From Devosia pacifica (GTDB lineage Bacteria > Pseudomonadota > Alphaproteobacteria > Rhizobiales > Devosiaceae): a DNA stretch of 64,000 bases. The notes beneath the pieces were generated by a model. The model had not been told where the DNA came from, searched no databases, and worked only from the letters and a program-made list of their open reading frames with translations. Shown here one piece after another: positions 7,893 to 28,904 of the stretch; position 1 is the first letter of the stretch, and the number at the start of each line of letters is the position of its first letter. The DNA is taken from NCBI RefSeq assembly GCF_014652635.1, contig NZ_BMZE01000003.1:625268-689267 (forward strand), written 5' to 3'. The position numbers were made by a program, and so were the translations under genes.

Positions 7893-7949
7893 GCGAGTCC
7901 TCCCACTTCGGTTCGGCTGGCGCCCAAAGGCGCCAGCCGGTCTTCAGCC

Positions 7950-9227: not shown

Positions 9228-9313
9228 GTCGTTCCTCCCTAAATGCCCAATGCGGGTTGTTGACGACCGGGTGGTGCATTGAGCGTATGGCCACCCGGAC
9301 GAAAGCGGTGTCC

Positions 9314-10396: not shown

Positions 10397-10489
10397 TTCG
10401 TTCTCCTCCTTCGACCGGCGCAGGTTCCCTGTCTTCCGATCAATGAAGCCGGTTGGTTGCCGGCCTCAGTTGTGTTGGCGCAGGCGCGC

Positions 10490-13258: not shown

Positions 13259-13409
13259 AACCTCCCCCTCGCTTTTATTAGTTATATTATTATCAGCATA
13301 TGTTTGAAACGGTGCTGTTGGCAATAGGCACTGAAGGCTGCAAAAAGGCGGCGCACCGTTTTGCGATCGAACGGCGCAATCGGCGTGGCTTTGAGGGTAA
13401 GGACGGCAG
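13259..13409. promoter_or_regulatory. Divergent promoter region of the GH2 operon and LacI gene
   Basis: This 151-base gap between divergent genes contains an A+T-rich tract at about 13275-13305 (TTTTATTAGTTATATTATTA), in sharp contrast with its surroundings, placed where the GH2 operon promoter is expected. The LacI gene's own ribosome site (TAAGGACGG) lies at its right end. Control by one or both LacI proteins is inferred; I found no convincing perfect palindrome here. Confidence 0.4.
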
Positions 13410-14435: not shown

Positions 14436-15525
14436 GGTCTTGCCGCGGCTGCGCGACTGACGCGCGCACAACCAACGGGCACTCCAGCTTGGTCAGCGGA
14501 TGTCGCGCATCCAAACGGTCTTCTGCGAGCTGTTCGGCGATCCACTGCCCCATCGCCCGGTGCGGCAATACCGACGTTGTCAGCTGCGGATGGAGGTGCC
14601 GGGCGATTTCCTCGTCGTCATAGCCGACGACCGACATATCGACGGGAATGTCGAGCCCTGCTTCCTTCAATGCCTCATAGCAGCCGATGGCCATCCGGTC
14701 GTTCTGGCAGAAAATCGCGGTCGGCACCTCGTCCAGGGCGAGGATCTGCCGTGTCGCCTCAAAGCCGGCACTCGCGGACCAGTCTCCATAAAGCACTAGA
14801 TCCGCATCGAAGGGGATGTCCGCCGTCGCCAGTGCCCGGCGATATCCCTTGAGGCGATCCTGCGCCGCCTCCATCCAGATTTCCCCGGTAATCGTTGCGA
14901 TGCGCTGATGACCGTTGGAGATCAGGTGGTGCGTTGCGCGCTGTCCCCCGGCGATTTCGCTCGGCACCACGGCAGGATGCTGCTGGCTGTCGGCATAGCA
15001 GTTGAGTAGCAAAACCGGGATTTGGAGATCCAGTAAAGATTGCGGCAGTTCAACTTCGCGGGTGAAGATCGTCATGTACACCAGCGCCGAGGCCCCTTGC
15101 GCGACAAAGGTCTCAATCAGCTCGGCCTCGAGCTCGGCATTGTTGCGGCTTTGCGCGACAAACACGAGGTCTCCCGAGGCTTCTGCTGCCTGGCTCAAGC
15201 CCTCTATCGCCTGAACGGCTTCGGGGCTGGTCGCGAGCTGATCAACGATGAAGCCTATCTTGCGACCAGCTTGGTAGCGCCGAGGTTCCGCCACCGCCTG
15301 TGGCTGCGCGGCCCTGTATCCAAGCCTACGCGCGGTGTCGAGCACCCGCCGACGCGTATCTTCGGAGAGGCGGATCCCGGGTGCATTATTAAGGACGAAC
15401 GAGACGGTGGCCTGCGAGCATCCGGCTTCGCGCGCCACATCTGTCATCGTGACCCTGCGTCCACCCGTATCATTCTTTCTTTGCCGGCTTTTGCGCCGGC
15501 CATCTGATGTCGCGGATTTTACCAT
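14377..15525 (-). CDS. LacI-family transcriptional regulator, paralogue of its neighbour
   Basis: A 382-residue LacI/GalR regulator with a basic N-terminal extension (RRKSRQRKN) before the helix-turn-helix VTMTDVAREAGCSQATVSFV. The effector domain shares many exact stretches with the LacI protein at 13410 (LLLNCY, HPAVVP, AIFC-NDRMAIGCYEA), so the two are paralogues. They are encoded tail-to-tail with a 59-base overlap, which makes the extreme C-terminus (after about residue 362) a likely recent extension. Its promoter region carries two dyads at 15546-15574. It may regulate itself, the GH2 locus or the PF08013 gene upstream; none is proven. Confidence 0.85.
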   Translation of the reverse strand: MVKSATSDGRRKSRQRKNDTGGRRVTMTDVAREAGCSQATVSFVLNNAPGIRLSEDTRRRVLDTARRLGYRAAQPQAVAEPRRYQAGRKIGFIVDQLATSPEAVQAIEGLSQAAEASGDLVFVAQSRNNAELEAELIETFVAQGASALVYMTIFTREVELPQSLLDLQIPVLLLNCYADSQQHPAVVPSEIAGGQRATHHLISNGHQRIATITGEIWMEAAQDRLKGYRRALATADIPFDADLVLYGDWSASAGFEATRQILALDEVPTAIFCQNDRMAIGCYEALKEAGLDIPVDMSVVGYDDEEIARHLHPQLTTSVLPHRAMGQWIAEQLAEDRLDARHPLTKLECPLVVRASVAQPRQDLTISPPGQSTGAPQTRTQS

Positions 15526-15687: not shown

Positions 15688-16950
15688 TCAGGCAGGCGCT
15701 ATGGCAGCCGCGTAGATGCCGAGCACTCGGTCGACTGCGGCGAGCAGTAGCGCTCTGGGCTGGGGAGCGACATGGCCTGCAACGACCTCCGGCCAAAGTT
15801 CCGGGAGGTATTGCGATATCAGCGTTTCCGGGATGTCGCGATCTGCCAGCCGGTCCATCAGATCGGTGACCAGCTGCTTCGCCTCCGGGGTGGTCCAATA
15901 GTACCGGATACGGTCCGAATAGCTGTAGTGCCGCAGCAGCCGCTGGGTGAGGTCGTCGCCTGGATAATAACGTTCCCAATGGCCAGGCTCGCGCAGCATC
16001 AGCGCTTCCATGCCGGCTTGAAGTCCGGATGTGCCGGTCAGCTCCTCGGAGATATGATCGAGCGAATAAAGGGCTTCGCGCAGAGCAAAGGTGAGCCACG
16101 GGCCGACCTTGAGAATGCCGAATCCGTCGCGTACCAGGGCTTGAAGTGCATCTTCGCTTTGGTAGTCCGTTGAATGCGCTTCGAACAGGATGCCGAGTTG
16201 CGGACGGGCGGCAATGAGCCCCCTCGCCGGCCCTGGCTCGTACAGGACAACATTGTCGTGGCCGAATTCAACGCCGGGCTGCACCACAAGTCCCACAACC
16301 TTGCCGAAAGCTTCGGCAATGCCTGCGGCATCGAACGCTTCGCGGTGTTCTTCGACCGTCTGTTCGGCATCAGCGGGAGTGGTCGGTACAAGCTCGTCCA
16401 CGTGTTCGGTTGCCCCGCCCGGAACCGGCACTTCGGTACCGATCACATAGGCAAGCGTTCGCCCGCCGCTATGGCGCTCCGCCACCGCCGCGAGGGAAGC
16501 GGCGCGTTTGGCGATCGTCTGTGTCGGTAGCGGCGTCGGATCATCGGCGCAGCTCATGCTGGTATCGAGGTGAATCTTTGTGAAGCCTGCGTCCACATAG
16601 GCCGCAACCATGCTCCCGGCCTTTTCCATCGCAGCGTCAGCTGGAAGCTGCTTCCACGGGTTTGGCCCGAGGTGGTCGCCGCCAAAAATCAGTTGCTCGT
16701 GCGCAAGGCCGACCCGGTCAACCAAGGTCAGGACCTGGGCGTGGAAATCCGCAGGGCGCATGCCGGTGTAGCCACCGTCCTGGTTCACCTGGTTGCAGGT
16801 CGCCTCGATGAGTACCGGCCCGCCGACCCGTGCGGCGCGCAGCAAAGCGGCCTCTAGAACCAGCGGATGTGCCGAGCAGACCGAGGCAATTCCACGTGGC
16901 TGGCCAGCGTCATGAGCGCTGATGAGGGTGTCAAAGAACGGATCGCGCAT
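15688..16950 (-). CDS. GatZ/KbaZ-family (PF08013) protein; possible tagatose-6-phosphate 4-epimerase
   Basis: A 420-residue full-length member of the tagatose-1,6-bisphosphate aldolase 'non-catalytic subunit' family. It has conserved segments GIASVCSAHPLVLEAALLRA near the start, IEATCNQVNQDGGYTGMRP at about 48-66, FGGDHLGPNPWK at about 88-99 and KIHLDTSMSCADDP at about 124-137. No class II aldolase partner (GatY/KbaY/AgaY) is in the window. In Agrobacterium a PF08013 member was shown to epimerise D-tagatose 6-phosphate to D-fructose 6-phosphate, which would suit this operon, where the SIS enzyme could supply tagatose 6-phosphate. It is divergent from the DeoR-led operon across a region with TGATCA repeats. 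Confidence 0.8.
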   Translation of the reverse strand: MRDPFFDTLISAHDAGQPRGIASVCSAHPLVLEAALLRAARVGGPVLIEATCNQVNQDGGYTGMRPADFHAQVLTLVDRVGLAHEQLIFGGDHLGPNPWKQLPADAAMEKAGSMVAAYVDAGFTKIHLDTSMSCADDPTPLPTQTIAKRAASLAAVAERHSGGRTLAYVIGTEVPVPGGATEHVDELVPTTPADAEQTVEEHREAFDAAGIAEAFGKVVGLVVQPGVEFGHDNVVLYEPGPARGLIAARPQLGILFEAHSTDYQSEDALQALVRDGFGILKVGPWLTFALREALYSLDHISEELTGTSGLQAGMEALMLREPGHWERYYPGDDLTQRLLRHYSYSDRIRYYWTTPEAKQLVTDLMDRLADRDIPETLISQYLPELWPEVVAGHVAPQPRALLLAAVDRVLGIYAAAIAPA

Positions 16951-16971
16951 GGTGATTTTCCTCTCGATAAA

Positions 16972-17041
16972 TGATCAGTAATGATCAAAAATACGATTGA
17001 CAAGGCGCTAAATTGATCATCTTGTTAAGCGAACACGATCA
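16972..17041. promoter_or_regulatory. TGATCA repeat cluster, probable DeoR operators in divergent promoter
   Basis: TGATCA occurs at 16972-16977, 16982-16987 and 17014-17019, with a CGATCA variant at 17036-17041, all inside the 100-base gap between the divergent PF08013 and DeoR genes. The first two are exactly ten bases apart, one helical turn. A TTGACA hexamer at 16997-17002 points toward the DeoR operon, so the third copy would fall between -35 and -10. Binding by the DeoR protein is inferred from position and repetition. Confidence 0.6.
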
Positions 17042-17050
17042 GAGAGACCT

Positions 17051-17824
17051 ATGAAGCCTGACCGCCCCACAGCCATCCGACAGTTGCTTTTTGCCAAGGG
17101 CCAGATGTCCATCGCTGATATTGCAGCGGCGGTTCAGGCCTCTGAGCCGACTGTGCGGCGTGACCTGACGCTGCTTGAAGGTGACGGGGCGATTGTGCGC
17201 ACACATGGCGGCGCACGCATTGCCGAACAGGGCGGCGGGGAACTCGCTTTCGAAACGCGCGAATCCCTGCGCTTGCCGGAAAAGCGCGCGATCAGTGAAG
17301 CCGCGTACAATTTGCTGCGCCCCAACTCATCGGTGTTCTTCGATGCGGGTACCACTGTTCTGCAACTGGCGCGGCTGTTGCGCCTGCGGCCCTTACCGCT
17401 CAACGTCTTCACCAACTGCCTGCCGCTGGCGCAGGTGCTTCTTGGCGTGGCCGAGGTTAAGGTCACGCTCCTTGGTGGTGCAATGCGCGCCGAGAACGCG
17501 TCGGTCGTCGGCGCCCTGGCCGAGGAAACGCTCGAAAAGCTTCGGTTCGACCAGGCCTTTCTCGGCATGGGCGCAATGGGCGACGATGCCGCGATCTATA
17601 CGGTCGACCCGCAGGAGGCGCGCCTAAACGCCCTGACCCTCGCGCACGCAGCGCGCGGCATTATCCTGACCGACTCCTCGAAATTCGGAAGCTATCTGAC
17701 CCATCGGGTGCACGTGGTTGGGCCCGGCATCGAGATCATTACCGATGCAGGACTCGACGCTGAGTGGGGACGCCGTCTCAAGCAACTTGGGGTCGCACTG
17801 CAAACCGTGGAGCCCGTGGCATGA
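17051..17824 (+). CDS. DeoR-family transcriptional regulator
   Basis: A 257-residue DeoR/GlpR-type repressor. The N-terminal helix-turn-helix (MSIADIAAAVQASEPTVRRDLTLLE, about residues 19-43) is followed by VRTHGGARI, and the C-terminal sugar-phosphate sensor domain (DeoRC) includes FFDAGTTVLQLA and DSSKFG. Such regulators usually respond to phosphorylated sugar intermediates, matching the kinase next door. It is the first gene of the plus-strand operon and its stop overlaps the kinase start. It probably controls both its own operon and the divergent PF08013 gene. Confidence 0.9.
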   Translation: MKPDRPTAIRQLLFAKGQMSIADIAAAVQASEPTVRRDLTLLEGDGAIVRTHGGARIAEQGGGELAFETRESLRLPEKRAISEAAYNLLRPNSSVFFDAGTTVLQLARLLRLRPLPLNVFTNCLPLAQVLLGVAEVKVTLLGGAMRAENASVVGALAEETLEKLRFDQAFLGMGAMGDDAAIYTVDPQEARLNALTLAHAARGIILTDSSKFGSYLTHRVHVVGPGIEIITDAGLDAEWGRRLKQLGVALQTVEPVA

Positions 17825-18756
17825 AGACGGTTCTCGGTATCGACGCAGGTGGATCAAAGACCCTTGCCGCGCTTGCGGACAAGACCGGCGCGGTGCTGGA
17901 GCTTTACGTTGGCCCCGGCTTCGACCCCACCCGGCACGATGATCCGGCGGCCAGGCTCCGCGAGCTGTTCAGCCAGTTCACGCCACAGGAGCGTCCTGAG
18001 GCAACGACGGCCGGCCTGCCCTATTATGGCGAAGTCGCGCGAATCACGACGCTCGAGGATCGCGTGACCGAAGACGTCTTCGGTCCTTCAGCCCGCGCCT
18101 GCAATGACGTGGAAGCTGCCCATATCGGAGCGTTCTCCGGCGGCGAAGGCGTGCTTTGCCTTGCGGGCACCGGCTCGATGGCGTGGGCGCTCGGCCCCTC
18201 GGGCACATCACGGGCCGGCGGCTTCGGCGATCTGATTGGCGATGAAGGCTCAGCCTACTGGATCGGTCAGCATGCCCTGTCGCTGCTGTCGCACGAGGCC
18301 GATGGCCGGCGCCCCAGCTCATCGTTCGGCGAAAGCCTTTTCGCCTCACTGGGCATCACGCCCGCTGAGCTGCTCGAATGGATCTACAGCCACGACAATC
18401 CGCGCGCCGGGATTGCCACCGTTGCACGGCACGTCTCTGAACACGCCGCAGCCGGCGAGTCAGAGGCAAGAGAGATCTTGTCGTCGGCTGGCGGCAAGCT
18501 TGCCGACGTTGCACGGGCTGCAGCGACCATCGCGGGCTTACCCGCCGGCGCGGCTCTCGCATGCGCTGGCAGCGTTTTCGCCGACCCGATCGTGCGTACT
18601 GAAATCGGTCGCAAGTTCGGCGCCACCCCTACCGCCTGCGAACTGCCACCAGTGGGCGGCGCCGTGTTCGATGCCGCTCGGCGTGCCGGCTGGACGGTGG
18701 ATGCCACCTGGATTTCTGCACTGCGGGACAATCTTCACAAACGGGGACACGCATGA
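17821..18756 (+). CDS. BadF/BadG/BcrA-type sugar kinase (N-acetylglucosamine kinase-like)
   Basis: A 311-residue member of the ASKHA ATPase superfamily. It has phosphate-1 GIDAGGSKTLA at residues 6-16, phosphate-2 region LCLAGTGSMAWAL (about 112-124), GGFGDLIGDEGSAYWIG and a C-terminal adenosine loop (PVGGAVFDAARRAG). This is the family of mammalian-type N-acetylglucosamine kinase and bacterial glucosamine kinases. In this operon it probably phosphorylates an amino sugar at O-6 before the SIS enzyme acts. The start is the ATG at 17821 (MKTVLGID), which overlaps the DeoR stop as ATGA; the frame is open upstream inside the DeoR gene but that part has no homology. Confidence 0.85.
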   Translation: MKTVLGIDAGGSKTLAALADKTGAVLELYVGPGFDPTRHDDPAARLRELFSQFTPQERPEATTAGLPYYGEVARITTLEDRVTEDVFGPSARACNDVEAAHIGAFSGGEGVLCLAGTGSMAWALGPSGTSRAGGFGDLIGDEGSAYWIGQHALSLLSHEADGRRPSSSFGESLFASLGITPAELLEWIYSHDNPRAGIATVARHVSEHAAAGESEAREILSSAGGKLADVARAAATIAGLPAGAALACAGSVFADPIVRTEIGRKFGATPTACELPPVGGAVFDAARRAGWTVDATWISALRDNLHKRGHA

Positions 18757-18791
18757 CGCTCTCCCTGCACAAGCACCTAAAGGAAGCCAAT

Positions 18792-19754
18792 ATGACGTCG
18801 GTCACCGAGAAGGTTATCCGGGACCAGTTCCCCTACTTGCGCCAGGCACTCGATATGCCGGTCCCATCTATCGAAGGCTCGACACGGGTTTTCGTGGGTT
18901 GCGGAACATCCTTTTATCTCGCCAAGACCCTTGCCGCTGCGTCCAATATGCTCGGACATCGAGCCATCGCCGTGCCTGGCGCCGAGTGGACGCGATATCA
19001 CGACGTCTACCTTCCCGAAGAACAGGACGCAGTCGTTATCGGCCTCTCGCGTTCAGGCACCACCACCGAGACAGTCGAAGCGATCCGCGTTTCGCGCGAA
19101 CGGGGTTTGAAGACCTTCGCCATCTCCTGCGAAGACCAATCCGAGATCATCCTGGCCGCTGACGACAGCGTATTCGTGCCGACCGATCCGCGCGAAGGCA
19201 TCGTCATGAGTGTCTCTGCCAGCCTGATGCTGTTGGCCGGCTTGCGGCTTGCGGGAGCAACGATCGGAGAGGCCGATATCGCGGCAGCTGAAGAGGCGCT
19301 TCAAGCCCTCGACGCCGGAGCCGATATCATCGAAGGCCGCAACCACTTTGTGTTTCTCGGCGCCGGACACCTTTATGGCATCGCCAGCGAGGGCGCGCTC
19401 AAGCTCATGGAAATGAGCATCAATCCCGCGCAGCCCTTCCACCCGATGGAATATCGCCATGGCCCCGTGTCGCTGATCGACGAAGGGTCACTCGCGGTGC
19501 TGCTCTACAACGGCGCCACTGCAGACGACGAAGCCGTACTCGCAGGCGAACTGCAGGCCAAGGGCGCCCGCGTCATTGGCTTCGGTGGTCCGGGCGATCT
19601 GTCCATCGGCACCGCAACAAACACGCCGGCCGGCGCCCTCCGCGTTCTTCCGGCCCTCCAGCTTCTTGGCGAAAAAGTCGCCGTTGCCCGCAACATCGAT
19701 ACTGAAACACCGCGCCACCTGACCAAGGTCGTGGTGCTGAACCAGCAGGCTTGA
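18792..19754 (+). CDS. SIS-domain sugar-phosphate isomerase/deaminase (AgaS/GlmS-like)
   Basis: A 320-residue protein with two sugar-isomerase (SIS) domains. The first has VFVGCGTSFYLAKTL and GLSRSGTTTETVEA; the second has FLGAGHLYGIASEGALKLMEM and PFHPMEYRHGP, which carries the catalytic-loop features of the GlmS/AgaS group. There is no N-terminal glutaminase domain, so it should deaminate or isomerise rather than aminate, for example galactosamine 6-phosphate to tagatose 6-phosphate plus ammonia. ATG 18792 is preferred over 18753 because AAAGGAAG lies just ahead; the 18753 start would overlap the kinase stop. Confidence 0.85.
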   Translation: MTSVTEKVIRDQFPYLRQALDMPVPSIEGSTRVFVGCGTSFYLAKTLAAASNMLGHRAIAVPGAEWTRYHDVYLPEEQDAVVIGLSRSGTTTETVEAIRVSRERGLKTFAISCEDQSEIILAADDSVFVPTDPREGIVMSVSASLMLLAGLRLAGATIGEADIAAAEEALQALDAGADIIEGRNHFVFLGAGHLYGIASEGALKLMEMSINPAQPFHPMEYRHGPVSLIDEGSLAVLLYNGATADDEAVLAGELQAKGARVIGFGGPGDLSIGTATNTPAGALRVLPALQLLGEKVAVARNIDTETPRHLTKVVVLNQQA

Positions 19755-19759
19755 ATAGC

Positions 19760-21079
19760 ATGACAAAGATCACCCTCGTCGGCGCCGGCTCGACAGTTTT
19801 TGCCCAGAACATCCTTGGCGATGTTCTCTCCAACCCCGAGCTTGCGGACAGCGAGATTGCGCTGTTCGACATCGATGAAGAGCGGCTCTCGACCTCCGAA
19901 GTGATGTCGAGACGCATTGGCTCGACGCTCGGTCTCGACAAGTTGCGCATCACCGCCACGACCAATCGCCGCGAGGCGCTGGAAGGCGCCGATTTCGTCA
20001 TCCTGATGATGCAGATCGGTGGCTACAAGCCGGCGACCGTCATCGACTTCGAGATCCCGAAGAAATTCGGCCTGCGCCAGACCATTGCCGACACGCTTGG
20101 CATTGGCGGCATCTTCCGCGCCTTGCGCACCATTCCGGTGGTGCTCGACGTGGCACGCGACATGGAAGAGCTGTGCCCCAACGCGTTGATGATGAACTAC
20201 ATCAACCCGATGGCGATGATCTCGTGGGCGGTGCAGGAAAAGTACCCGAACCTCGCCTATGTGGGCCTGTGCCATTCCGTTCAGGAGACAGCCGGCCACC
20301 TCGCCGAAGTTCTCAACGAGGATATTTCGGCGATCGACTACACTTCGGCAGGCATCAACCACGTGGCGTTCTTTTCGAAGTTCGAAAAACGGCTCGCTGA
20401 CGGTACGCGCGAAGACCTCTATCCGCGTCTCAAGGCCATCGCCGAGGCAGGCAAGGCTCCGGATGGCGACAAGGTGCGCTTCGAAGTTTTGCGCCAGCTC
20501 GGCTACTTCGTCACCGAAAGCTCGGAGCACTTCAGCGAGTACACACCCTGGTTTATCAAGCGCGGCCGCACGGACCTCGTTGATCGTTTCCAGGTGCCGC
20601 TCGACGAATATATCCGGCGCTGCGAAGAGCAGATTGCAGAGTGGGAAGTGCTCAAGGACGAGCTGGAAGACGAGAGCCGCCCGCTCGAAGTGGAGAAATC
20701 CAACGAGTACGCCGCCGCGATCATTCACGGCATGGTCACCGGCACCAATCACCTGATCTACGGCAATCTGCGCAATAACGGGCTGATCTCCAACCTGCCG
20801 AACGATGCGGCTGTGGAGGTACCGTGCCACGTCGACCGCAACGGCATTCAGCCCATCCGCGTCGGCGCAGTCCCGCTGCAGCTGGCCGCCGTCATGCGCT
20901 GGCAGACCAATGTGCAGGAACTGACCGTCGCTGCGGCGCTCACCGGTCGGCGTGACCACATCTACCACGCTGCCATGCTCGATCCGCACACTGCCGCCGA
21001 ACTGGCCCCCGATGAAATTCGCCAGCTCTGCGACGAGCTGATCGAGGCTCACGGCAACTTCTTGCCTAGCTACCACTGA
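19760..21079 (+). CDS. GH4 family glycosidase, alpha-galactosidase-like
   Basis: A 439-residue NAD- and metal-dependent GH4 glycosidase. It begins with a Rossmann motif KITLVGAGSTVFAQNILGD, then has MMNYINPMA, the metal-binding CHSVQE and GINHVAFF. Within GH4 the CHSV form is associated with alpha-galactosidases (MelA) rather than alpha-glucosidases or 6-phospho-glycosidases, so the substrate is probably galacto-configured. It lacks a signal peptide and should act on imported glycoside in the cytosol. ATG 19760 is chosen over the in-frame TTG at 19751, which lies before the Rossmann strand. It is tightly packed after the SIS gene. Confidence 0.85.
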   Translation: MTKITLVGAGSTVFAQNILGDVLSNPELADSEIALFDIDEERLSTSEVMSRRIGSTLGLDKLRITATTNRREALEGADFVILMMQIGGYKPATVIDFEIPKKFGLRQTIADTLGIGGIFRALRTIPVVLDVARDMEELCPNALMMNYINPMAMISWAVQEKYPNLAYVGLCHSVQETAGHLAEVLNEDISAIDYTSAGINHVAFFSKFEKRLADGTREDLYPRLKAIAEAGKAPDGDKVRFEVLRQLGYFVTESSEHFSEYTPWFIKRGRTDLVDRFQVPLDEYIRRCEEQIAEWEVLKDELEDESRPLEVEKSNEYAAAIIHGMVTGTNHLIYGNLRNNGLISNLPNDAAVEVPCHVDRNGIQPIRVGAVPLQLAAVMRWQTNVQELTVAAALTGRRDHIYHAAMLDPHTAAELAPDEIRQLCDELIEAHGNFLPSYH

Positions 21080-21092
21080 GGAGTGAGGCACC

Positions 21093-22148
21093 ATGGCCCA
21101 GGTCTCCGTCGCGCAACTGAAAAAGACCTATCACAAGACCGATGTGCTGCACGGCATCGACTTCGATGTCGCTGACGGCGAGTTCGTCGCCCTCGTCGGC
21201 CCGTCGGGCTGCGGTAAATCCACTCTGTTGCGGATGATTGCGGGGCTTGAGGACGTCACCGGCGGCAAGATCAGCATCGGCGAGAAGGTCGTGAACGATG
21301 TATCGCCCAAGGATCGGGACATCGCCATGGTGTTTCAGAACTATGCACTCTACCCACACATGACTGTCGCGCGGAATATGGGCTTCTCGCTCTATCTGCG
21401 CGGCGGCGCCAAGGACGAAATCGCCCGGCGGGTCCAGGAAACCTCGGCCATGCTGGGGCTGAGCGATTTGCTTGATCGCCTTCCCGGACAGCTTTCCGGA
21501 GGTCAGCGCCAGCGTGTGGCCATGGGACGCGCCATTGTGCGCCAACCATCGGTATTCTTGTTCGACGAGCCTCTCAGCAACCTCGATGCGGCACTCCGCG
21601 TGCAAATGCGCGCCGATATCCGCGATCTGCACGACCGGCTGGGCTCGACCTCGATCTTCGTCACGCACGATCAGATCGAGGCGATGACCATGTCGGACCG
21701 CATCATTGTGCTGCGCAACGGGAAGCTGGAACAGGCCGGCACGCCGCTCGATCTTTACGATCGGCCCGGCAACGCATTCGTTGCCGGCTTCATCGGCTCG
21801 CCAGCCATGAACCTGCTGCCCGGGGAGATTGTAGAGGGCGAGGTCAGGCTCAATGACAAGCTCACCGTTCCTGCCGAAAGCCGCGCTGCAGGCTCGGTCA
21901 TCTGGGGCATCAGGCCCGAGCATCTGGACTGGACGCCTGAGGCCGGCAGTGGCGTAATCTCCGGCACGGTGACAGGCATCGAACGCACGGGTTCTTCCGA
22001 TCTCGTGATTGCCGATTGTTCCGGGTGCCGGATCATGGCGGTTTTCCAGGAGCGCCATTCTATCGAGCGGGGCAGCACGGTTCACCTGCGCCCCCGCCCC
22101 GGCTTCGCTCATCTGTTCGATGCTGAAACCACGGTGCGTCTGGCATGA
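21093..22148 (+). CDS. Sugar ABC transporter ATP-binding protein (UgpC/MalK type), second locus
   Basis: A 351-residue MalK-like ATPase with Walker A GPSGCGKST (about residues 37-45), VFQNYALYPHMTV, signature LSGGQRQRVAMGRAIV, Walker B FLFDEPLSNLD, H-loop VTHD and a TOBE domain (VIWGIRPEHLDWT). It is clearly paralogous to the ATPase at 9314-10396 but divergent in the TOBE region, so each probably serves its own transporter. GAGGAG precedes the start by nine bases. Its stop overlaps the amidohydrolase start (ATGA). Confidence 0.9.
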   Translation: MAQVSVAQLKKTYHKTDVLHGIDFDVADGEFVALVGPSGCGKSTLLRMIAGLEDVTGGKISIGEKVVNDVSPKDRDIAMVFQNYALYPHMTVARNMGFSLYLRGGAKDEIARRVQETSAMLGLSDLLDRLPGQLSGGQRQRVAMGRAIVRQPSVFLFDEPLSNLDAALRVQMRADIRDLHDRLGSTSIFVTHDQIEAMTMSDRIIVLRNGKLEQAGTPLDLYDRPGNAFVAGFIGSPAMNLLPGEIVEGEVRLNDKLTVPAESRAAGSVIWGIRPEHLDWTPEAGSGVISGTVTGIERTGSSDLVIADCSGCRIMAVFQERHSIERGSTVHLRPRPGFAHLFDAETTVRLA

Positions 22149-23230
22149 GTATCGCGCTCAACGACTTTCAGCCGAAGCCGTCGCTGGTGCGTCCCGAAAC
22201 GCACCTCGCCGGCCCCTCGATGCCGTTTGTCGATGCGCACAATCATCTTGGGCCGTTTGGCGGCGACTGGGACCAACGCCCACCCCAAGAGCTGTTCGAT
22301 CACCTGCGTGCGCATGGATGCGTACACTACGTCGATCTCGATGGCGGCTGGGGTGAAGATATTCTGGATGACCGGCTGCGCCGCTACAAGCAGTTGGAGC
22401 CCGAGAGCTACAGGGTTTTCGGCGGCGTCAATTGGGCGCTCTGGGCTGACGAAGGCAACGCATTCCCGCAAAAGGCTGCGGCACGGCTGAGGGATCAGGC
22501 AGCACGCGGCGCCGAGGGGCTCAAGATCTGGAAGCCATTCGGCCTCACGGTGCGCGATCAGCATGGCGCGTTGGTTGCGGTGGATGACGAACGGCTGGAC
22601 CCGATCTGGGCCACTGCCGGAGAGCTCGGCCTGCCAACGCTTGTTCATGTTGCAGACCCGGTCGCGTTCTTCTCTCCAATCGATGGCACGAACGAGCGAT
22701 ACGAGGAGTTGCAGACGCATCCGGACTGGGCTTTCCCCTCCCCGCCTTTTCCAACTTTCGGGTCAATCCTCGAAGGGTTTGCCAACCTCGTCCGCAGGCA
22801 TCGCGGCACGACGTTCATTGGGGCGCACGTTGCCTGCTATGCCGAAAACCTTGCCTGGGTTTCCTCGCTGCTCGACGAATGCCCAAACCTGATGATCGAT
22901 TTTTCGGCGCGCATCGCCGAGCTCGGCCGGGTGCCCTATAGCGCGCGCGAATTCCTGCTGCGTAACCATCAGCGCGTCCTGTTCGGCACCGATGCCGGCC
23001 CGGATGCCGAGGCATGGGCGCTCTATGCCCGCTTTCTCGAAACGCGTGACGAGTACTTCAACTACTCAACAGAATCGGTGCCCCCGCAAGGGCGCTGGAT
23101 GATCTACGGCCTGCACCTCCCGCAGGACGTTCTCAAGGCGATCTACCATGACAATGCGGCACGGCTATTTGGCCTTGAAGCTGCAGAGACGGATCGCCGC
23201 CACCCGCAAACTAACTCCAACCACAAGTGA
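22145..23230 (+). CDS. Amidohydrolase_2-type metal-dependent hydrolase of unknown substrate
   Basis: A 361-residue TIM-barrel amidohydrolase (PF04909-like). The metal-binding HxH appears as FVDAHNHLGPFG at about residues 28-39. Further conserved stations are GLKIWKPFG, LVHVADPVAFF, FIGAHVACYAENL and the strand-8 aspartate in LFGTDAGPDA. It is embedded between the ABC ATPase and the binding-protein gene, with a four-base overlap upstream, so it must belong to the same pathway. It could be a lactonase, a deacetylase or a decarboxylase; sequence alone does not decide. The presence of WP and many aromatic residues suggests a sugar-sized substrate, but that is speculation. Confidence 0.75.
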   Translation: MSIALNDFQPKPSLVRPETHLAGPSMPFVDAHNHLGPFGGDWDQRPPQELFDHLRAHGCVHYVDLDGGWGEDILDDRLRRYKQLEPESYRVFGGVNWALWADEGNAFPQKAAARLRDQAARGAEGLKIWKPFGLTVRDQHGALVAVDDERLDPIWATAGELGLPTLVHVADPVAFFSPIDGTNERYEELQTHPDWAFPSPPFPTFGSILEGFANLVRRHRGTTFIGAHVACYAENLAWVSSLLDECPNLMIDFSARIAELGRVPYSAREFLLRNHQRVLFGTDAGPDAEAWALYARFLETRDEYFNYSTESVPPQGRWMIYGLHLPQDVLKAIYHDNAARLFGLEAAETDRRHPQTNSNHK

Positions 23231-23237
23231 GGGAACT

Positions 23238-24494
23238 ATGAAGCTTGTAACAACCACAGGGCTGGCGCTCCTGATGGCGGTAGGGGCCGCCGGATCCGCC
23301 TTTGCCCAGACCGAAATCACCTTCTCGCTCTGGGGCAGCCCCCAGGAAGGCGAGGTCTGGCAGGAAATCGCCAGCGCCTTCGAAGCCGAGCATCCCGATA
23401 TCGCCGTTAATGTCGAAGTTGCGGACTGGGACGGCTATTGGGAAAAGCTGCGCGTTCAGGTCGCTGGCGGTACACCGCCCGACGTGTTCGCAATGGACGC
23501 ACCGCTTTATCCGGATTGGCAATCGCGCGGGGTGCTGCTCAACCTGCAACCCTATCTCGATGCCGATCCGGAAATGCTCGACGGCATCTACCCAACGACG
23601 CTCGAAGCCTACAAGACCGACGAGGGCATGTTCGGTCTTCCTCGTGACTTCCAGACGATCGTCCTGTTCTACAACAAGGACATGTTCGACGCTGCGGGGG
23701 TCGAGTACCCAACTTCCGAGTGGACCTGGCAGGATTTCCGCGATGCTGCCGCTGAGTTGACCATCGACAAGGATGGCGACGGCACGACCGACCAGTGGGG
23801 CGCCTGGGCCGAAGTCTATGACATGGAGCCGCTCTGGGGCCCCGTTGTCTGGTCCCATGGCGGCGAGATCGTTGATCCGGAAGCCGGTGAAACGCTGATC
23901 GACAGCCCGGAGGCCATGGAAGGCTTCGAGTTCATTCGATCGGTCTGGCTCGATGACAAATCCATGCCGACATCCGAACAGCTGAGCCAGTATGGCTGGG
24001 ACGGACTTTTGTCTGGCGTTGCCGCGATGGGGTTTTCGGGCCACTGGTCGGTGCCTGAATATTCCCAGGCCGGGCTCAATCTCGGTGTAGTGCCGATGCC
24101 GGAAGGCCCTGCTGGCCGCAAAACCATGGTGAACTCTGCAGGCTTCGTGGTTTCCGCCAGTACGCCGAACCCTGACGCAGCGTGGGAATTCGTCAAGTAC
24201 GCGACGTCTGAAGCCGGACAGACCGAACTGGCAAAGATCGGTCTCGCGATCCCGATCCGGGAAAGCGTCACCAGCAGCGACGCCTATCTCGGCCAGGAAG
24301 CCGACATTGACCATCAGGTCTTCGTCGACGCGCTTGAGTACGCCAACGTCAAACCATCCTTCAAAGGCTACGAGGAGTGGTCCGGCGCCGTCGGTGATGC
24401 GCTCAGCCTCGCATGGAGCGAAGGCGTACCGCTCGAAGATGCCTTGGCCGAGGCGGTCGACTACGGCAATGACGCCCTGGCAGCCAACAGGTAG
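23238..24494 (+). CDS. Extracellular sugar-binding protein, second locus
   Basis: A 418-residue family-1 solute-binding protein. The Sec signal peptide is MKLVTTTGLALLMAVGAAGS plus AFA, with cleavage about residue 23. The mature N-terminus is QTEITFSLWGSPQEGEVWQE, followed by VQVAGGTPPDVFAMDAPLYP and FYNKDMFDAAGVEYP. ATG 23238 is chosen because the signal peptide begins there and GAGGGAAC lies ahead; the open frame upstream overlaps the amidohydrolase. It delivers ligand to permeases at 24497-26217. It is only distantly similar to the binding protein at 7950, indicating a different ligand. Confidence 0.9.
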   Translation: MKLVTTTGLALLMAVGAAGSAFAQTEITFSLWGSPQEGEVWQEIASAFEAEHPDIAVNVEVADWDGYWEKLRVQVAGGTPPDVFAMDAPLYPDWQSRGVLLNLQPYLDADPEMLDGIYPTTLEAYKTDEGMFGLPRDFQTIVLFYNKDMFDAAGVEYPTSEWTWQDFRDAAAELTIDKDGDGTTDQWGAWAEVYDMEPLWGPVVWSHGGEIVDPEAGETLIDSPEAMEGFEFIRSVWLDDKSMPTSEQLSQYGWDGLLSGVAAMGFSGHWSVPEYSQAGLNLGVVPMPEGPAGRKTMVNSAGFVVSASTPNPDAAWEFVKYATSEAGQTELAKIGLAIPIRESVTSSDAYLGQEADIDHQVFVDALEYANVKPSFKGYEEWSGAVGDALSLAWSEGVPLEDALAEAVDYGNDALAANR

Positions 24495-24496
24495 GC

Positions 24497-25384
24497 ATGA
24501 TGGCTAATCTCCGTCCACTGGGGCTCGAACGGGCATGGCTGCTGATCTTTCTGCTGCCGACCCTGTTCGGGCTGGCTCTTGGAGCCTTCGGCTCCATCTT
24601 CGCCACGCTGAGTATCAGCTTCATGGACTGGGACTTGCTGACCCCGCCGGTTGCGGCGGGGTTCAGCAACTACGTCGGACTGCCTGATGACCGGCTGTTT
24701 AATCAGGCCTTCTGGAACACCTTGGCCTTCGCGGGTCTTTATGTGCCGCTTACGGTCGTCATCAGCCTGTTCGTGGCGCTGGGCCTCAATCGCAAGCTGC
24801 CCGGTACCACGTTTTTCCGGATCGCTTTTTTCCTGCCCACAGTGTCCAGCCCCACCGCAGTGGGTCTGCTGTGGACCTGGATTTATGCGCAGGACAATGG
24901 CGTTCTCAACGAAGCGATCACCGCGCTCGGCGGTGACCCGGTGCGCTGGCTCAGCCGCGACGTGGCGCTCTATTCCGTGGTCATCGCGAATGTCTGGGGC
25001 GCCATAGGCGGCGGCATGATCATCTTTCTGGCAGGGCTACAGTCCATCCCGCGCGATTTTTACGAAGTGGCAGATCTTGATGGGGCCAAGCCGTGGCAGC
25101 GTTTGTGGTTCATCACCCTGCCGGCGCTGGCGCCCTCGATGTTCTTCCAGACCGTTCTGACCACTATCAATGCCTTCCAGGCATTCGACTATATCTACAT
25201 CCTGACCCGCACCGGGAACGGCAATTCCAATATGCCGACACTGGTGTTTTCGATCTATCGCAGCGGCTTTCGGTTCTTCCGGATGGGTGATGCGGCGGCG
25301 CAAGCAGTGGTGCTGACGGCAATCATCCTGGTGCTGACCTTCGTCTATTTCCGTCTGCAGAAAAAATGGGGGGCAACCGCATGA
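24497..25384 (+). CDS. Sugar ABC transporter permease (MalF type), second locus
   Basis: A 295-residue CUT1 permease with six helices. It starts with the usual LIFLLPTLFGLALGAFGSIF helix and has the FSNYVGL motif after it. The EAA loop is DFYEVADLDGAKPWQRLWFITLP at about residues 191-213. The gene starts two bases after the binding-protein stop, showing tight coupling. It is inner-membrane, and works with the permease at 25381 and the ATPase at 21093. Confidence 0.9.
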   Translation: MMANLRPLGLERAWLLIFLLPTLFGLALGAFGSIFATLSISFMDWDLLTPPVAAGFSNYVGLPDDRLFNQAFWNTLAFAGLYVPLTVVISLFVALGLNRKLPGTTFFRIAFFLPTVSSPTAVGLLWTWIYAQDNGVLNEAITALGGDPVRWLSRDVALYSVVIANVWGAIGGGMIIFLAGLQSIPRDFYEVADLDGAKPWQRLWFITLPALAPSMFFQTVLTTINAFQAFDYIYILTRTGNGNSNMPTLVFSIYRSGFRFFRMGDAAAQAVVLTAIILVLTFVYFRLQKKWGATA

Positions 25385-26217
25385 ACAGAACCGCCGATAA
25401 ACGCCGGTTTTGGGGCGATATCGCAGCCTTCGCCGCGCTCACGCTTGGTGCTCTATGCATGGTCGGCCCCTTTGTGTGGATGATCTCCACCAGCCTCAAG
25501 CCGATTGCCGAACAATACGACATGCGCCTGATCCCGCAGACCATGACACTTGAGAACTACCCGCGGCTGGTCGACATCATGCCGATCCATCTGCAGCTGC
25601 TCAACAGTTTCATCATCGCAGGCATCTCGACATTCGGACAGCTGCTGACATGCTCGATGGCCGGCTTCATCTTCGCCGTCGTCAGATTCCCGTTCCGCAA
25701 TGTCCTGTTCGTGCTGCTGCTGATCACGCTGATGGTGCCGGCGCAGGTCACCGTCATTCCGCAGTTCATCGTGTTCCGCTTCTTGGGGCTCTATGGAACA
25801 CAGGCACCGCTTTACCTTCCGGCTTTTCTGGGTGGCGCTTTTGGCACCTTCCTGATGCGCCAGTATTTTCTGACGATCCCCTCAGAGCTGGCCGAGGCCG
25901 CACGCATTGATGGCGCATCGCTGGCGCGCATCTTCTTCACCATCTATCTGCCGCTGGCCAAGCCTGCCCTCGCCGCCTTCGCGATCTTTGCCTTCATGTT
26001 CTCGTGGAACGACCTGTTTCAGGCTCTGATCTATCTGCCATCTAACATGGAGCAAACGACTGTTACGGTCGGCCTCGCACTGTTCCAGACGCAGTATGCC
26101 GGACAGTGGCCGTTGATGATGGCCGGGTCGCTGCTCGCCGTGGCGCCGATCATTCTGGTGTTCTTCTTTGCTCAGAAATACTTCATGGGCGGCATCGCCA
26201 TGTCAGGGCTGAAATGA
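25381..26217 (+). CDS. Sugar ABC transporter permease (MalG type), second locus
   Basis: A 278-residue MalG-like permease with FVWMISTSLKP in the first periplasmic segment and the EAA loop ELAEAARIDGASLARIFFTIYLP near residues 171-193. ATG 25381 is selected because it overlaps the upstream stop as ATGA and follows a GGGGGG-rich ribosome site; an in-frame ATG at 25366 would extend into the partner gene. Its own stop overlaps the start of the flavin reductase-like gene, so the operon continues. Confidence 0.9.
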   Translation: MNRTADKRRFWGDIAAFAALTLGALCMVGPFVWMISTSLKPIAEQYDMRLIPQTMTLENYPRLVDIMPIHLQLLNSFIIAGISTFGQLLTCSMAGFIFAVVRFPFRNVLFVLLLITLMVPAQVTVIPQFIVFRFLGLYGTQAPLYLPAFLGGAFGTFLMRQYFLTIPSELAEAARIDGASLARIFFTIYLPLAKPALAAFAIFAFMFSWNDLFQALIYLPSNMEQTTVTVGLALFQTQYAGQWPLMMAGSLLAVAPIILVFFFAQKYFMGGIAMSGLK

Positions 26218-26810
26218 GCGGCACCTTGGCGCCCGTTGATCCAGCCAGGGCGCATCGCCTGATCAATCACGGGCCGACCGTTCTGATCTCGTCGACTCAT
26301 TCCGGCGTCGACAACGTCATGCCCGCAGCATGGGCCACCGTTCTCGACATGGCGCCCGCCAAGGTTGTTGTCGTGATTGATCGCGCAACGAAAACGCGTG
26401 AGCTGGTCGACGCAAGCGGCCGTTTCGTCCTGCAGGTCCCGGTTGTCGCCCAGCTGGCGCTTGTTGATTTCCTCGGCATGCACTCTGCACAAGATGAGCC
26501 GGACAAGCTCGACCGAGCCGGCGCCACGCTATTTCGAATGCCCGGGCACGACCTGCCGTTTGTTGCCGATTGCGCAGGGTGGATGGCGTGCCGTGTTCTA
26601 ACCGAGCCAAGCAAGCCCGAAACTTACGACTTGGTCCTTGCAGAAGTCGAGGCAGCCTGGTCCGACCCGCGCATGTTCCGCGACGGCCGCTGGGTCACCG
26701 ACGCGCCGCCGGACTATCGCACGCTTCACCACGTGTCCGGCGGACGCTATTTCGCCATCGGCGAGACGATCGACGTCGATCGCAGCCCGGACGAGGGTCC
26801 GGGCAACTAG
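26214..26810 (+). CDS. Flavin reductase-like (FMN-binding split barrel) protein
   Basis: A 198-residue protein of the DIM6/NTAB flavin reductase family. It has PTVLISSTHSGVDNVMPAAWATV near the start, then KVVVVIDRATKTRELV and FVLQVPVVAQLALVDFLG, which match the flavin-binding strands, and a late HHVSGGRYFAIGE motif. Such proteins reduce FMN for two-component monooxygenases or act as stand-alone oxidoreductases. No monooxygenase is in the operon. It is the last gene of the sugar operon, coupled to the permease by ATGA. Its role in the pathway is unknown. Confidence 0.75.
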   Translation: MSGTLAPVDPARAHRLINHGPTVLISSTHSGVDNVMPAAWATVLDMAPAKVVVVIDRATKTRELVDASGRFVLQVPVVAQLALVDFLGMHSAQDEPDKLDRAGATLFRMPGHDLPFVADCAGWMACRVLTEPSKPETYDLVLAEVEAAWSDPRMFRDGRWVTDAPPDYRTLHHVSGGRYFAIGETIDVDRSPDEGPGN

Positions 26811-26922: not shown

Positions 26923-27438
26923 TCAGCGGCGCAGCACATCCTGCCATTCCGGATGGCGCTCTATCTGCGCTTTTGCGAACGGGCAGAGCGGCACAATAGT
27001 GACACCTTCGCGCCTTGCATCCTCAATCGCCTGGCGCACCAGTCGCTCGCCGACCTTGCGTCCACGCAAGGCGGTCGGCACTTCCGTATGATCGATGATG
27101 ATGAGGCTTTCGCCCGCTCGGCTATAGGTCATCTCTGCCTCAACATCATCAATGACCAGGCGATAGCGCCCCTTCGGCGTGCCATCTTCCCTCTCGACCG
27201 TCCCGGCATCCAGCGCGGGAGCGGAGTTCACCTCTGCGGCGTCAGGGGCCCGCACTTGTTGCGGCTGGCCGTGGGCACATTCCAACAGATCGCGGTCCCA
27301 GCCGGCCAGGTCGGCAGCGGCCTCGTAGCTCGATACGAGGAAGCTCATCAGGGCCGCATCGGGATTAGCGGAGGACTGGACGGCCTCATAGGGGAGCACG
27401 AATTCGGACAGTTCCTCATGCCAGAAGGCGGCGTCCAA
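26923..27438 (-). CDS. Chimeric gene: DUF5996 C-terminal piece plus GNAT (YjdJ-type) acetyltransferase
   Basis: 171 residues in two recognisable parts. Residues 1-52 (FWHEELSEFVLPYEAVQSS, then DAALMSFLVSSYEAAADLA) match the C-terminal end of DUF5996 proteins, which normally have more than 200 residues before this point. Residues about 88-171 form a YjdJ-like small GNAT (SLIIIDHTEVPTALRGRKVGERLV, then VPLCPFAKAQIERHPEWQDV). The GNAT half looks complete. The DUF5996 half is cut at about 27435, exactly where a recombinase relic begins, so the arrangement is best explained by truncation. Whether the natural gene was a fusion before the event is uncertain, and so is the functional start. Confidence 0.65.
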   Translation of the reverse strand: MDAAFWHEELSEFVLPYEAVQSSANPDAALMSFLVSSYEAAADLAGWDRDLLECAHGQPQQVRAPDAAEVNSAPALDAGTVEREDGTPKGRYRLVIDDVEAEMTYSRAGESLIIIDHTEVPTALRGRKVGERLVRQAIEDARREGVTIVPLCPFAKAQIERHPEWQDVLRR

Positions 27439-27630
27439 GACCTACCTGCGCCCCGTCATCGACCAGATTGAGGTCGCTGACGACATCGTGCGGATCGTCG
27501 GCGACAAGGCACGCTCGAACAGGTCATCGCGGGCAATGCAGACGTTCGCAGTTTTGCACGAGAATGGCGCGCCACTCATGATGAAAATGGGCACTGGGAA
27601 ATCGAGGTGCCCAGATGCAGGAAAAGATAA
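27437..27630 (+). pseudogene. Relic of a serine site-specific recombinase 3' end
   Basis: Two frames together resemble the C-terminal tail of resolvase/invertase-type recombinases. KTYLRPVIDQIEVADDIVRI and VGDKA lie in one frame. After a one-base loss near 27510 the other frame gives TLEQVIAG, DVRSFAREWRATHDENGHWE and IEVPR, ending at TAA 27628-27630. The 'G-K-A-x-L...VRSF-R-W' pattern is characteristic of that tail. No catalytic domain remains. The relic abuts the truncated DUF5996 piece and overlaps the first bases of the tyrosine recombinase gene. Confidence 0.6.
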
Positions 27631-28637
27631 GCTATAACAATGGAGTATCTCCCTCAAGCGAACAGCAGTACCGGGAGCGGATGCAACAGTTGGTGCGGCG
27701 GTGGCAGCGCAGGAGGTCGCCGGATCAGGCGCAGGAAGACGTCGTGAGCTTCGTCAATTGGCTGATCAACTGCCGGTCCGGCCTCAGTGCTGCGAGTTGG
27801 CGCAACTACAAGGCATCAGTCGTCTGGGCGATGGAAGAGATCCCCAGTAATTTTTTCAAGGCTGCAGCATGCTCCGATGTTCAGACTGCGCTTGAGATGC
27901 TGAGGTCGACAGGCCAACGTGGTTTGAGTTTGCATGCTGACCGGACGTCTGGGCTAAAGGCACGCCGGGTCAAGGACAAAGACCTGATAAGGCTTGAGGC
28001 GTTCTTCGCGAAGTCCAGGTCCAGATATGCTACGTTCGTCCCCATGATGGTTCGGGTGAGCAACTTGGCCGGCCTGCGGCCATGTGAGTGGCCTTCGGCG
28101 CGTCTTTCCGTCGGGCTCGGCGGCAACGCGGCTGTGCTTATCGTAGAAAACGCAAAACACACAAATGGACGTGGACACGGGGAGTTTCGCACGATCATTT
28201 GGGAGGAACTGCCAGACGACGTGGTCGAGGATCTTAGGCAGTGGCTAGCCTACGTTGCGGAATCCGTTTCGGGCGCCACGAGCGTCGCATCAGTTTGGAA
28301 AGAGACCATGAAGGGCCTTGCTCGAGAGCTCTATCGTGCCAACAAGAAGTTGTGGCCGCGCCGCAAGAAGCATATCGCGCCGTATTCTGCGCGTCAGGAA
28401 TATTCCGCCCGATTGAAGAGCGTACGTGACCCGGAGGTGGCCGCAGCCCTGATGGGGCATGCTGTCGATGACACCGCATACCGACATTATGCAGGAAACC
28501 GAAGGTCCCGAGGGCACCCAGACAAATTTCACGTGCCCGACGCGAACCCGACAGAGGTCGCTAAGGTGAGAAAGACTGGCTGGCAGGACAAGTTCGAAGA
28601 CTTCAGAGGCGCCAAGGCTGCGACGCCCAAGCTGTGA
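27615..28637 (+). CDS. Tyrosine-recombinase/phage-integrase-like protein
   Basis: 340 residues. The N-terminal part (ASWRNYKASVVWAMEEIP) resembles a SAM-like core-binding domain. The C-terminal half shows remnants or variants of the integrase catalytic stations: LAGLRPCEW (first arginine), VENAKHTNGRG (lysine region), PYSARQEYSARL (box II, with Y/R rather than HxxR), and LMGHAVDDTAYRHYAGNRR (histidine and the terminal tyrosine). The overall spacing fits a tyrosine recombinase, but the H-to-P/Y change in box II makes activity uncertain. GAGGTG precedes the ATG. It lies beside recombinase and IS relics, consistent with an integration site. Confidence 0.65.
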   Translation: MQEKISYNNGVSPSSEQQYRERMQQLVRRWQRRRSPDQAQEDVVSFVNWLINCRSGLSAASWRNYKASVVWAMEEIPSNFFKAAACSDVQTALEMLRSTGQRGLSLHADRTSGLKARRVKDKDLIRLEAFFAKSRSRYATFVPMMVRVSNLAGLRPCEWPSARLSVGLGGNAAVLIVENAKHTNGRGHGEFRTIIWEELPDDVVEDLRQWLAYVAESVSGATSVASVWKETMKGLARELYRANKKLWPRRKKHIAPYSARQEYSARLKSVRDPEVAAALMGHAVDDTAYRHYAGNRRSRGHPDKFHVPDANPTEVAKVRKTGWQDKFEDFRGAKAATPKL

Positions 28638-28904
28638 TGAACGCACGCCGCTTGCTCGCGTCAACTTTGTTCCATGACACGTCTTTGGCGATCCGGCCGA
28701 TCATTTTTCCCCGGGTCCGGCGCCTATCTGCTTGGAGCAAATGTCTCAGGTCAAATCCGCTTCGCGCCCCATTATCGACCGTTCAGCCTGCGATTTCGGG
28801 TTCCCGAAAGCAGCCGGTCCGCTCTGGGGTGATGGGGTGGACGCCCCCCGGCGGCATCGATGTGCCAAAGTGGAGGTGTTGAAGCACCACTTGAGGAGGC
28901 GCCC

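Follow-up and report, generated by a model that had tools for sequence, protein, structure and literature searches.

A probable DeoR-regulated operon for the aldolase-free use of a galacto-configured amino sugar in Devosia pacifica

The window analyzed here, a 64,000-nucleotide stretch of the Devosia pacifica genome (contig NZ_BMZE01000003.1, positions 625,268 to 689,267), contains a PF08013 (GatZ/KbaZ-family) gene divergent from an operon that encodes a DeoR-family regulator, a BadF-type kinase, a SIS protein, a glycoside hydrolase family 4 (GH4) enzyme, an amidohydrolase, and a CUT1-type ABC transporter. Together they probably form a DeoR-regulated system for the use of a galacto-configured amino sugar that enters the cell as a glycoside and is degraded without an aldolase. 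The observations behind this reading are gene content, an operator-like site, co-occurrence, active-site residues, and the absence of PF01116 and LacD-type aldolases. In the proposed pathway, the CUT1 transporter would take up a short alpha-glycoside, which the GH4 enzyme would cleave in the cytoplasm. The BadF kinase would phosphorylate the freed galactosamine at C6, and the SIS protein would convert galactosamine 6-phosphate to tagatose 6-phosphate by deamination and isomerization. The PF08013 protein, encoded divergently from the same control region, would epimerize tagatose 6-phosphate at C4 to fructose 6-phosphate; tagatose 1,6-bisphosphate would not be formed, and an aldolase would be unnecessary. 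Every reaction in this scheme is a prediction, as is galactosamine as the sugar, and above all the GH4 substrate and the action of the amidohydrolase.

PF08013 is present in all 22 SIS-bearing genomes of a 397-genome sample of the order (SIS matches counted at E up to 1e-30) versus 44 of the 375 genomes without SIS (Fisher p = 2.5e-19, uncorrected for relatedness; 9 genera). It lies within 10 kb of 13 of the 23 SIS matches in this sample and otherwise elsewhere in the genome or at contig ends. Because PF08013 also co-occurs from elsewhere in the genome, the two genes are linked by more than proximity. With one genome scanned per species, 267 SIS relatives emerge, and the best 80 of these, referred to below as the named loci, were searched by tblastn at 1e-8 with window, E. 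coli, and Deinococcus proteins; many come from Rhizobium, so the loci are not independent. Of these best 80 of 267, 71 carry PF08013 no more than 10 kb from SIS, as a divergent copy in 31 and on the operon strand in 40. A glucosamine-6-phosphate deaminase would yield fructose 6-phosphate and need no PF08013 protein, which argues for tagatose 6-phosphate as the product of the SIS enzyme.

The strongest single argument is the apparent replacement of PF08013 by a kinase and a class II aldolase in other phyla. A locus of Deinococcus psychrotolerans (L051), whose SIS protein is 52% identical to that of the window, has its BadF and SIS genes followed by a class II aldolase gene and one for a kinase of the 1-phosphofructokinase family; PF08013 was not matched in the locus. 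A Kitasatospora locus (L221, SIS 31% identical) groups NagA, DeoR, SIS, a ROK kinase, a 1-phosphofructokinase-family kinase, and a class II aldolase. The compound common to kinase plus aldolase and to the epimerase is tagatose 6-phosphate, and the replacement therefore points to this intermediate. An earlier note on this DNA had proposed phosphorylation, deamination to tagatose 6-phosphate, and epimerization without a bisphosphate; this sequence of steps fits the lack of a suitable aldolase, the complete co-occurrence, and the exchange seen elsewhere.

The PF08013 protein (positions 15688..16950, minus strand; 420 residues) belongs clearly to its family, scoring 564 bits against a Pfam cut-off of 26.7 and 590 bits against the TIGR02810 cut-off of 568.8, with solved homologues 3txv and 2fiq. 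The GatZ zinc and active-site residues C20, E44, D87, H88, E171, H257, and K279 (residue list from PMC11907403) are conserved in all 72 rows of an alignment comprising the window protein, its Sinorhizobium meliloti counterpart, GatZ, KbaZ, and proteins from 68 of the 71 loci, three partial matches being omitted. For the E. coli members GatZ and KbaZ, conversion of fructose 6-phosphate to tagatose 6-phosphate was reported in 2025 (PMC11907403). The window protein is predicted to be a tagatose 6-phosphate/fructose 6-phosphate 4-epimerase. PF08013 genes are still annotated as "D-tagatose-bisphosphate aldolase, class II, non-catalytic subunit", and this operon shows where that name misleads; it also points to amino-sugar breakdown as a physiological task of an activity that otherwise serves tagatose production. 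A second PF08013 match in the window, at 5917-6057, was rejected at 19.3 bits, below the cut-off.

The absence of a catalytic partner extends to the whole genome, which measures 4.0 Mb and is near-complete (completeness 99.98%). A profile search for PF01116, to which GatY, KbaY, and class II fructose-bisphosphate aldolase belong, returned no match in the entire genome, while 11 of 14 control genomes were positive, so that the catalytic component of a GatYZ/KbaYZ-type tagatose-bisphosphate aldolase complex is missing. The sole PF01791 protein is a deoxyribose-phosphate aldolase (DeoC; NCBIfam 140.6 bits versus a cut-off of 117.3, scanned over the matched part), which rules out a LacD-type aldolase as its identity. 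A class I fructose-bisphosphate aldolase (PF00274) is present in the genome; this family was matched in none of the 14 controls. The earlier note had reported no GatY or KbaY, a statement that holds genome-wide, and had named a class II aldolase outside the locus as grounds for rejecting the pathway; with PF01116 unmatched and PF01791 represented by DeoC, those grounds do not arise. Four-epimerization has been reported for class II aldolases (PMC5434028), which is of no help here because the genome has none. PF01116 is fully absent from 5 of the 22 SIS-bearing order genomes (the window genome G000, G099, G130, G225, and G278, spanning two genera), and in the others, which hold 23 PF01116 matches, no match shares a contig with the SIS gene at a distance of 10 kb or less.

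The SIS protein (18753..19754, plus strand, with an alternative start at ~18792; SIS profile 86 bits) is closest to GlmD and GlmS, scoring 127.6 bits against the GlmD model (cut-off 580), and its nearest solved relatives are labeled glucosamine-6-phosphate deaminase or aminotransferase. It reaches only 59.5 bits against TIGR02815 (cut-off 529.2), the model for the AgaS-family deaminase of the Aga/Gam pathway. The GlmS residues K485, E488, H504, and K603 are kept in 14 of 14 SIS rows; AgaS keeps the equivalents of the first three, not K603. These features are compatible with a predicted galactosamine-6-phosphate deaminase/isomerase that would release tagatose 6-phosphate. The kinase upstream (17821..18756, plus strand) falls in the BadF/NagK group (PF01869, 83 bits; NagK model 64.6 bits, below the cut-off of 370) and is a predicted hexosamine 6-kinase. 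Its ATG at 17821 overlaps the stop codon of the DeoR gene, the mechanical open reading frame starting at 17764.

The company kept by related loci also points to galactosamine. In E. coli, AgaS is required for growth on galactosamine and N-acetylgalactosamine (PMC3668189), and galactosamine polymers, Pel among them, are substrates of GH114 and related families (PMC12054363). The Deinococcus psychrotolerans locus includes two GH114 genes, annotated as endo alpha-1,4 polygalactosaminidase, inside the set. A Streptantibioticus locus (L217) combines GH4 (47% identical to the window GH4), a PfkB kinase, CUT1 permeases, SIS, an aldolase, and GH114 within ~10 kb. On a Burkholderia arboris plasmid (L224), genes for an AgaR-like regulator, BadF, an AgaS-family protein (450 bits, cut-off 529), PF08013, a melibiase-like enzyme, GH114, and a porin stand together, with no KbaY or GatY match in 18.5 kb; we regard it as an independently assembled, apparently aldolase-free candidate galactosamine polymer locus around the known kind of deaminase. 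GH114 in these three related loci suggests galactosamine oligomers as the substrate. GH114 is also enriched among SIS-bearing genomes of the order sample (9 of 22 versus 29 of 375, p = 5e-5); this is only a hint, because three of the nine matches are weak (E 3e-7 to 2e-6) and none in the 397 genomes lies within 10 kb of SIS on the same contig. In four SIS-cluster carriers of one genus (contigs G180:C37, G393:C28, G320:C214, and G292:C14), a contig opens with the GH114 gene, which may adjoin a repeat. GH114 also lies next to a gene annotated pelF in Streptomyces californicus, Kocuria rosea, and Deinococcus sp. QL22 plasmids, a setting of polymer synthesis rather than breakdown.

A further extension, which we hold tentatively and consider rather doubtful, is that the GH4 clade comprises intracellular exo-alpha-galactosaminidases and that the operon forms the downstream half of a system for using alpha-1,4-galactosamine polymers (Pel, galactosaminogalactan). 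Oligomers released by secreted GH114-type enzymes, the cell's own or a neighbor's, would be imported, cut by the NAD-dependent GH4 enzyme, and burned without an aldolase. The last step would be interchangeable across phyla: Pseudomonadota would rely on an epimerase, Deinococcus and actinobacteria on a kinase together with an aldolase. Should an alpha-galactosamine polymer indeed be the substrate, the operon would offer a way to degrade sugars of biofilms and fungal walls, Pel and galactosaminogalactan among them; literature searches on their breakdown, PMC12054363 included, found depolymerases and no uptake-and-use operon.

The GH4 enzyme (19751..21079, plus strand; PF02056/PF11975, 211 and 196 bits for its two domains) is the least certain part of the pathway. 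Its translation contains a CHSV motif, which we take to mark the alpha-galactosidase type, and it shares 54% identity with E. coli MelA and exceeds the cut-off of the alpha-galactosidase subfamily model NF011657. A tree of 80 rows (72 different, with the best 30 rows from the 397-genome search) places it in a 51-row clade apart from the MelA clade (SH-aLRT 100). A separate MelA orthologue (L213), 68% identical to E. coli MelA, is encoded in the same genome; its partner there is another GH4, only distantly related (34% identical to the window GH4), and similar two-GH4 genomes occur across the genus and the order. The linkage of the window GH4 clade to SIS is by construction, because most clade rows came from the SIS-centered scan; among the best 30 GH4 rows of the 397-genome draw, 5 of 8 clade members adjoin SIS, and one SIS-adjoining GH4 (G250) lies outside the clade. 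None of the clade-specific GH4 residues could be placed in the active site. GH4 sharing loci with GH114 in two other phyla (L051 and L217) is indirect evidence for a galactosaminidase, the Deinococcus enzyme lying outside the window GH4 clade, and MelR-like neighbors are evidence for an ordinary alpha-galactosidase; a mixed galactose-galactosamine glycan would suit both. The earlier claim that GH4 frees galactosamine is not supported as stated, relatives of the enzyme being found beside MelR-like regulators as well.

The transporter provides all components of a CUT1 carbohydrate system on the plus strand: a UgpC/MsmK-type ATPase (21093..22148; PF00005, OB_MalK, and TOBE_2, with NF008653 above cut-off), a solute-binding protein (23238..24494; PF01547 (SBP_bac_1) 162 bits; GanS-like at 79.6 bits, below the cut-off of 700; mechanical open reading frame start 23148), and two PF00528 (BPD) permeases, A (24497..25384) and B (25366..26217). 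Comparison of the best 80 of 267 loci reveals a modular arrangement. A permease pair less than 40% like that of the window lies directly upstream of SIS in 73 loci, and in 6 loci GH4 directly follows SIS and is accompanied by permeases that share 67-85% identity with those of the window; four of these six carry both transporters, and the other two (L091 and L109) have the GH4-linked one only, like the window and locus L050. GH4 lies upstream of DeoR in 29 of the 38 GH4-bearing loci. The PF04909 amidohydrolase (22145..23230, plus strand; Pfam profile match) travels with the GH4-transporter module in 4 of the 80 loci and in L050. We read these arrangements as a core for free galactosamine with an added glycoside module of GH4, transporter, and sometimes the amidohydrolase, the window apparently having the glycoside form only. 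A structural model of the amidohydrolase (mean pLDDT 79.1) fits amidohydrolase-superfamily decarboxylases loosely (TM about 0.5) and indicates no function, and a profile search of solved chains gave one chance-level match (E 0.73).

Three other pathways were weighed against this one. SIS proteins include isomerases, and the GH4 enzyme could free galactose for conversion by the BadF kinase to galactose 6-phosphate, by SIS acting as a plain isomerase, and by the PF08013 epimerase, again without an aldolase and with no amino sugar involved. Such a route would suit a galactosidase-family enzyme that carries CHSV, passes the alpha-galactosidase subfamily cut-off, and has relatives beside MelR-like regulators, but it leaves aside the GlmS-type catalytic set of SIS including K603, the NagK-like kinase, the GH114 or NagA genes of orthologous or analogous clusters, and the MelA orthologue already encoded elsewhere in the genome; we consider it unlikely. 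Quite unlikely, too, is an operon for glucosamine or mixed hexosamines, in which SIS would form fructose 6-phosphate directly and PF08013 would be accessory or would serve galactosamine as a side substrate. The labels of the nearest solved SIS relatives and the rank of GlmD as the best NCBIfam model favor this possibility, but the GlmD score falls far below its cut-off, PF08013 accompanies SIS in 22 of 22 genomes, and the substitution of an aldolase and a kinase elsewhere would be pointless for fructose 6-phosphate.

A classical Aga-type route, in which PF08013 would only assist a tagatose-bisphosphate aldolase whose gene lies elsewhere, is very improbable. The NCBIfam family name calls the protein an aldolase subunit, and the aldolase is described as requiring the KbaZ subunit for its full activity and its stability in vitro (PMC3668189). 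One named locus (L109) carries a lone GatY-like gene (32% identical) that ends ~1.8 kb from PF08013; it is convergent with it and lies within a run of other plus-strand genes, and we take it for a neighbor, though a partner role is conceivable there. The lack of PF01116 and LacD largely refutes such a route for the window genome, 5 of 22 SIS-bearing genomes are likewise without PF01116, and neither KbaY nor GatY was matched in any of the 22 order loci or in 79 of the 80 named loci.

Several observations weigh against aldolase-free use of a galactosamine glycoside, the reading we prefer. PF08013 was not seen nearby in 9 of the 80 named loci and 10 of the 22 order loci, and 17 of the 22 SIS-bearing genomes have at least one PF01116 aldolase somewhere. 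By NCBIfam scores, the SIS protein is more like the glucosamine-6-phosphate deaminase GlmD than AgaS, and the Kitasatospora SIS has R at the position of GlmS K603. A genome search found no GH114 in the window genome, and the GH114 link consists of three loci only. Three clade GH4 genes unlinked to SIS stand with short-chain dehydrogenases (G186 and G265) and/or AraC-type regulators (G087 and G265, the latter MelR-like), and in two Rhizobiaceae plasmid records outside the 80 loci, GH4 lies upstream of DeoR and diverges from a gene for a MelR-like regulator (183 and 153 bits, below the cut-off of 253). These neighborhoods favor plain galactosides. The amidohydrolase has no explained role in the pathway.

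The control region ties the PF08013 gene to the operon. The DeoR-family regulator (17051..17824, plus strand; 257 residues; PF00455 and PF08220) is AgaR-like at 153 bits, below the cut-off of 260. The pattern GATCA-N5-GATCA-N7-GATTGAC(A), or variants of it, is common to 32 divergent PF08013-DeoR intergenic regions, with GATTGACA itself in 27 of them, and the predicted DeoR operator of the window (GATCA-N5-GATCA-N7-GATTGAC; 16971..17016, plus strand) was located with a matrix built on these 32 regions. Its last element overlies a possible -35 box (TTGACA). Of 50 held-out loci, 40 have a matrix site upstream of DeoR at a distance of less than 200 bp, and the hits of the matrix number 72 in real sequences (both strands) against 0 in reversed ones; this recurrence partly reflects shared descent, because the held-out loci are relatives. 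The window genome contains a single operator-like site within two mismatches, at 16973, with none in the reversed-pattern control. The GATCA pair alone, at one mismatch, is not enriched in the window (3 versus 6.3 in shuffles). The shared operator-like site thus joins the divergent gene and the operon as one regulon; DeoR would bind at the predicted operator. The operon is real and conserved, and it is probably co-regulated.

The core of DeoR, BadF kinase, ABC transporter, SIS, ATPase, and PF08013 is common in rhizobia and relatives. The best 80 of 267 loci include DeoR in 79, CUT1-type permeases in 77, BadF kinase in 75, ABC ATPase in 74 (at least 50% identical in 69), GH4 in 38, amidohydrolase in 4, a GatY homologue in 1, and KbaY in 0. 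In the order sample, the 22 other loci, each 4 to 20 kb long, show PF08013 in 12 cases and GH4 in 5, with no KbaY or GatY match among them. The arrangement, a search for which the earlier note had suggested, recurs in dozens of other genomes, far above chance, and the set is not rare. Among the matches listed, the closest named relative is a plasmid of Pelagibacterium sp. H642 (Devosiaceae; SIS 70%, PF08013 66% identical), which has the identical ten-gene order. The SIS protein is absent from all 11 other genomes of the genus and all 9 genomes of the family examined, from which it seems that the window genome acquired the cluster or that its relatives lost it. Integrase-like and IS110 transposase-like genes lie 1.4 to 3.2 kb past permease B and, with the absence of SIS in the genus, hint at horizontal gain, a suggestive pattern only.

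Within the divergent pair, the PF08013 gene is transcribed from the minus strand and the DeoR-BadF kinase-SIS-GH4-ABC ATPase-amidohydrolase-solute-binding protein-two permeases series from the plus strand, with operon gene ends overlapping or almost touching. Profile matches confirmed every gene named in the earlier note (PF08013, BadF kinase, SIS, GH4 with CHSV, and a full CUT1 transporter) at its place; that list was correct as far as it went, leaving out the amidohydrolase and making no mention of DeoR. The end it gave, 26810, belongs to a flavin-reductase-like gene that is not evidently part of the set and is excluded here. The stretch just past the cluster (26923-29432) encodes a DUF5996/GNAT protein, a weak integrase-like gene (27615-28637, below cut-off), and an IS110 transposase-like gene (28860-29432). 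On the other side, a second sugar locus (4281-15525) comprises a GH127-like protein, a CUT1 transporter (6130-10396), a GH2 enzyme (about 10490-13324), and two LacI regulators (13410-14435 and 14377-15525).

Among known systems, the PF08013 4-epimerases are close in biochemistry. An Agrobacterium tumefaciens PF08013 protein is said to be a tagatose 6-phosphate 4-epimerase (Wichelecki 2015), and E. coli GatZ/KbaZ are of the same kind; the window protein belongs to their family and keeps all seven named active-site residues. Known cases of such epimerases serve galactitol, altritol, or tagatose use, or the reverse reaction, whereas the present one is linked to amino-sugar genes. The GH4 enzyme resembles MelA in family, CHSV motif, and identity but belongs to a separate, fully supported clade in a genome that also encodes a MelA orthologue. 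A Shewanella form of the Aga-Gam pathway has reportedly been described (Leyn 2012). Like the E. coli Aga-Gam system (AgaS, KbaYZ; PMC3668189), the window operon would use a SIS protein to deaminate galactosamine 6-phosphate to tagatose 6-phosphate and includes a PF08013 member; E. coli, however, imports by a phosphotransferase system and uses the KbaY aldolase, whereas the window operon combines ABC uptake with a kinase of its own and lacks an aldolase.

The nearest precedent is a D-galactosamine pathway predicted for S. meliloti in 2016 by diCenzo et al. from deletion strains and modeling (PMC4961836), comprising a transporter (Smb21216 and Smb21219-21221) and the enzymes Smb21217, Smb21218, Smb21373, and Smb21374. 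As described there, it too combines an ABC transporter with four enzymes, two from elsewhere on pSymB. The pSymB PF08013 gene is 59% identical to that of the window and is probably Smb21373 or Smb21374, an assignment we infer for an unannotated record. The pSymB locus that fits by layout (L215) differs in encoding an ATPase, a PfkB rather than BadF kinase, SIS, two permeases, and a solute-binding protein; its SIS is remote, being missed by the window SIS search and found only by the PF01380 profile, PF08013 lies ~0.26 Mb away, and no GH4 was matched at the locus. The earlier note knew of no description of the full set as one pathway, and searches of open-access full text yielded no description of this gene set. 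The pathway idea itself is not new, because a D-galactosamine route of the same logic had already been predicted for S. meliloti (PMC4961836). What is new is the BadF/GlmD-type version in one regulon, together with its spread, its operator, the aldolase-kinase replacement, and the GH114 link.

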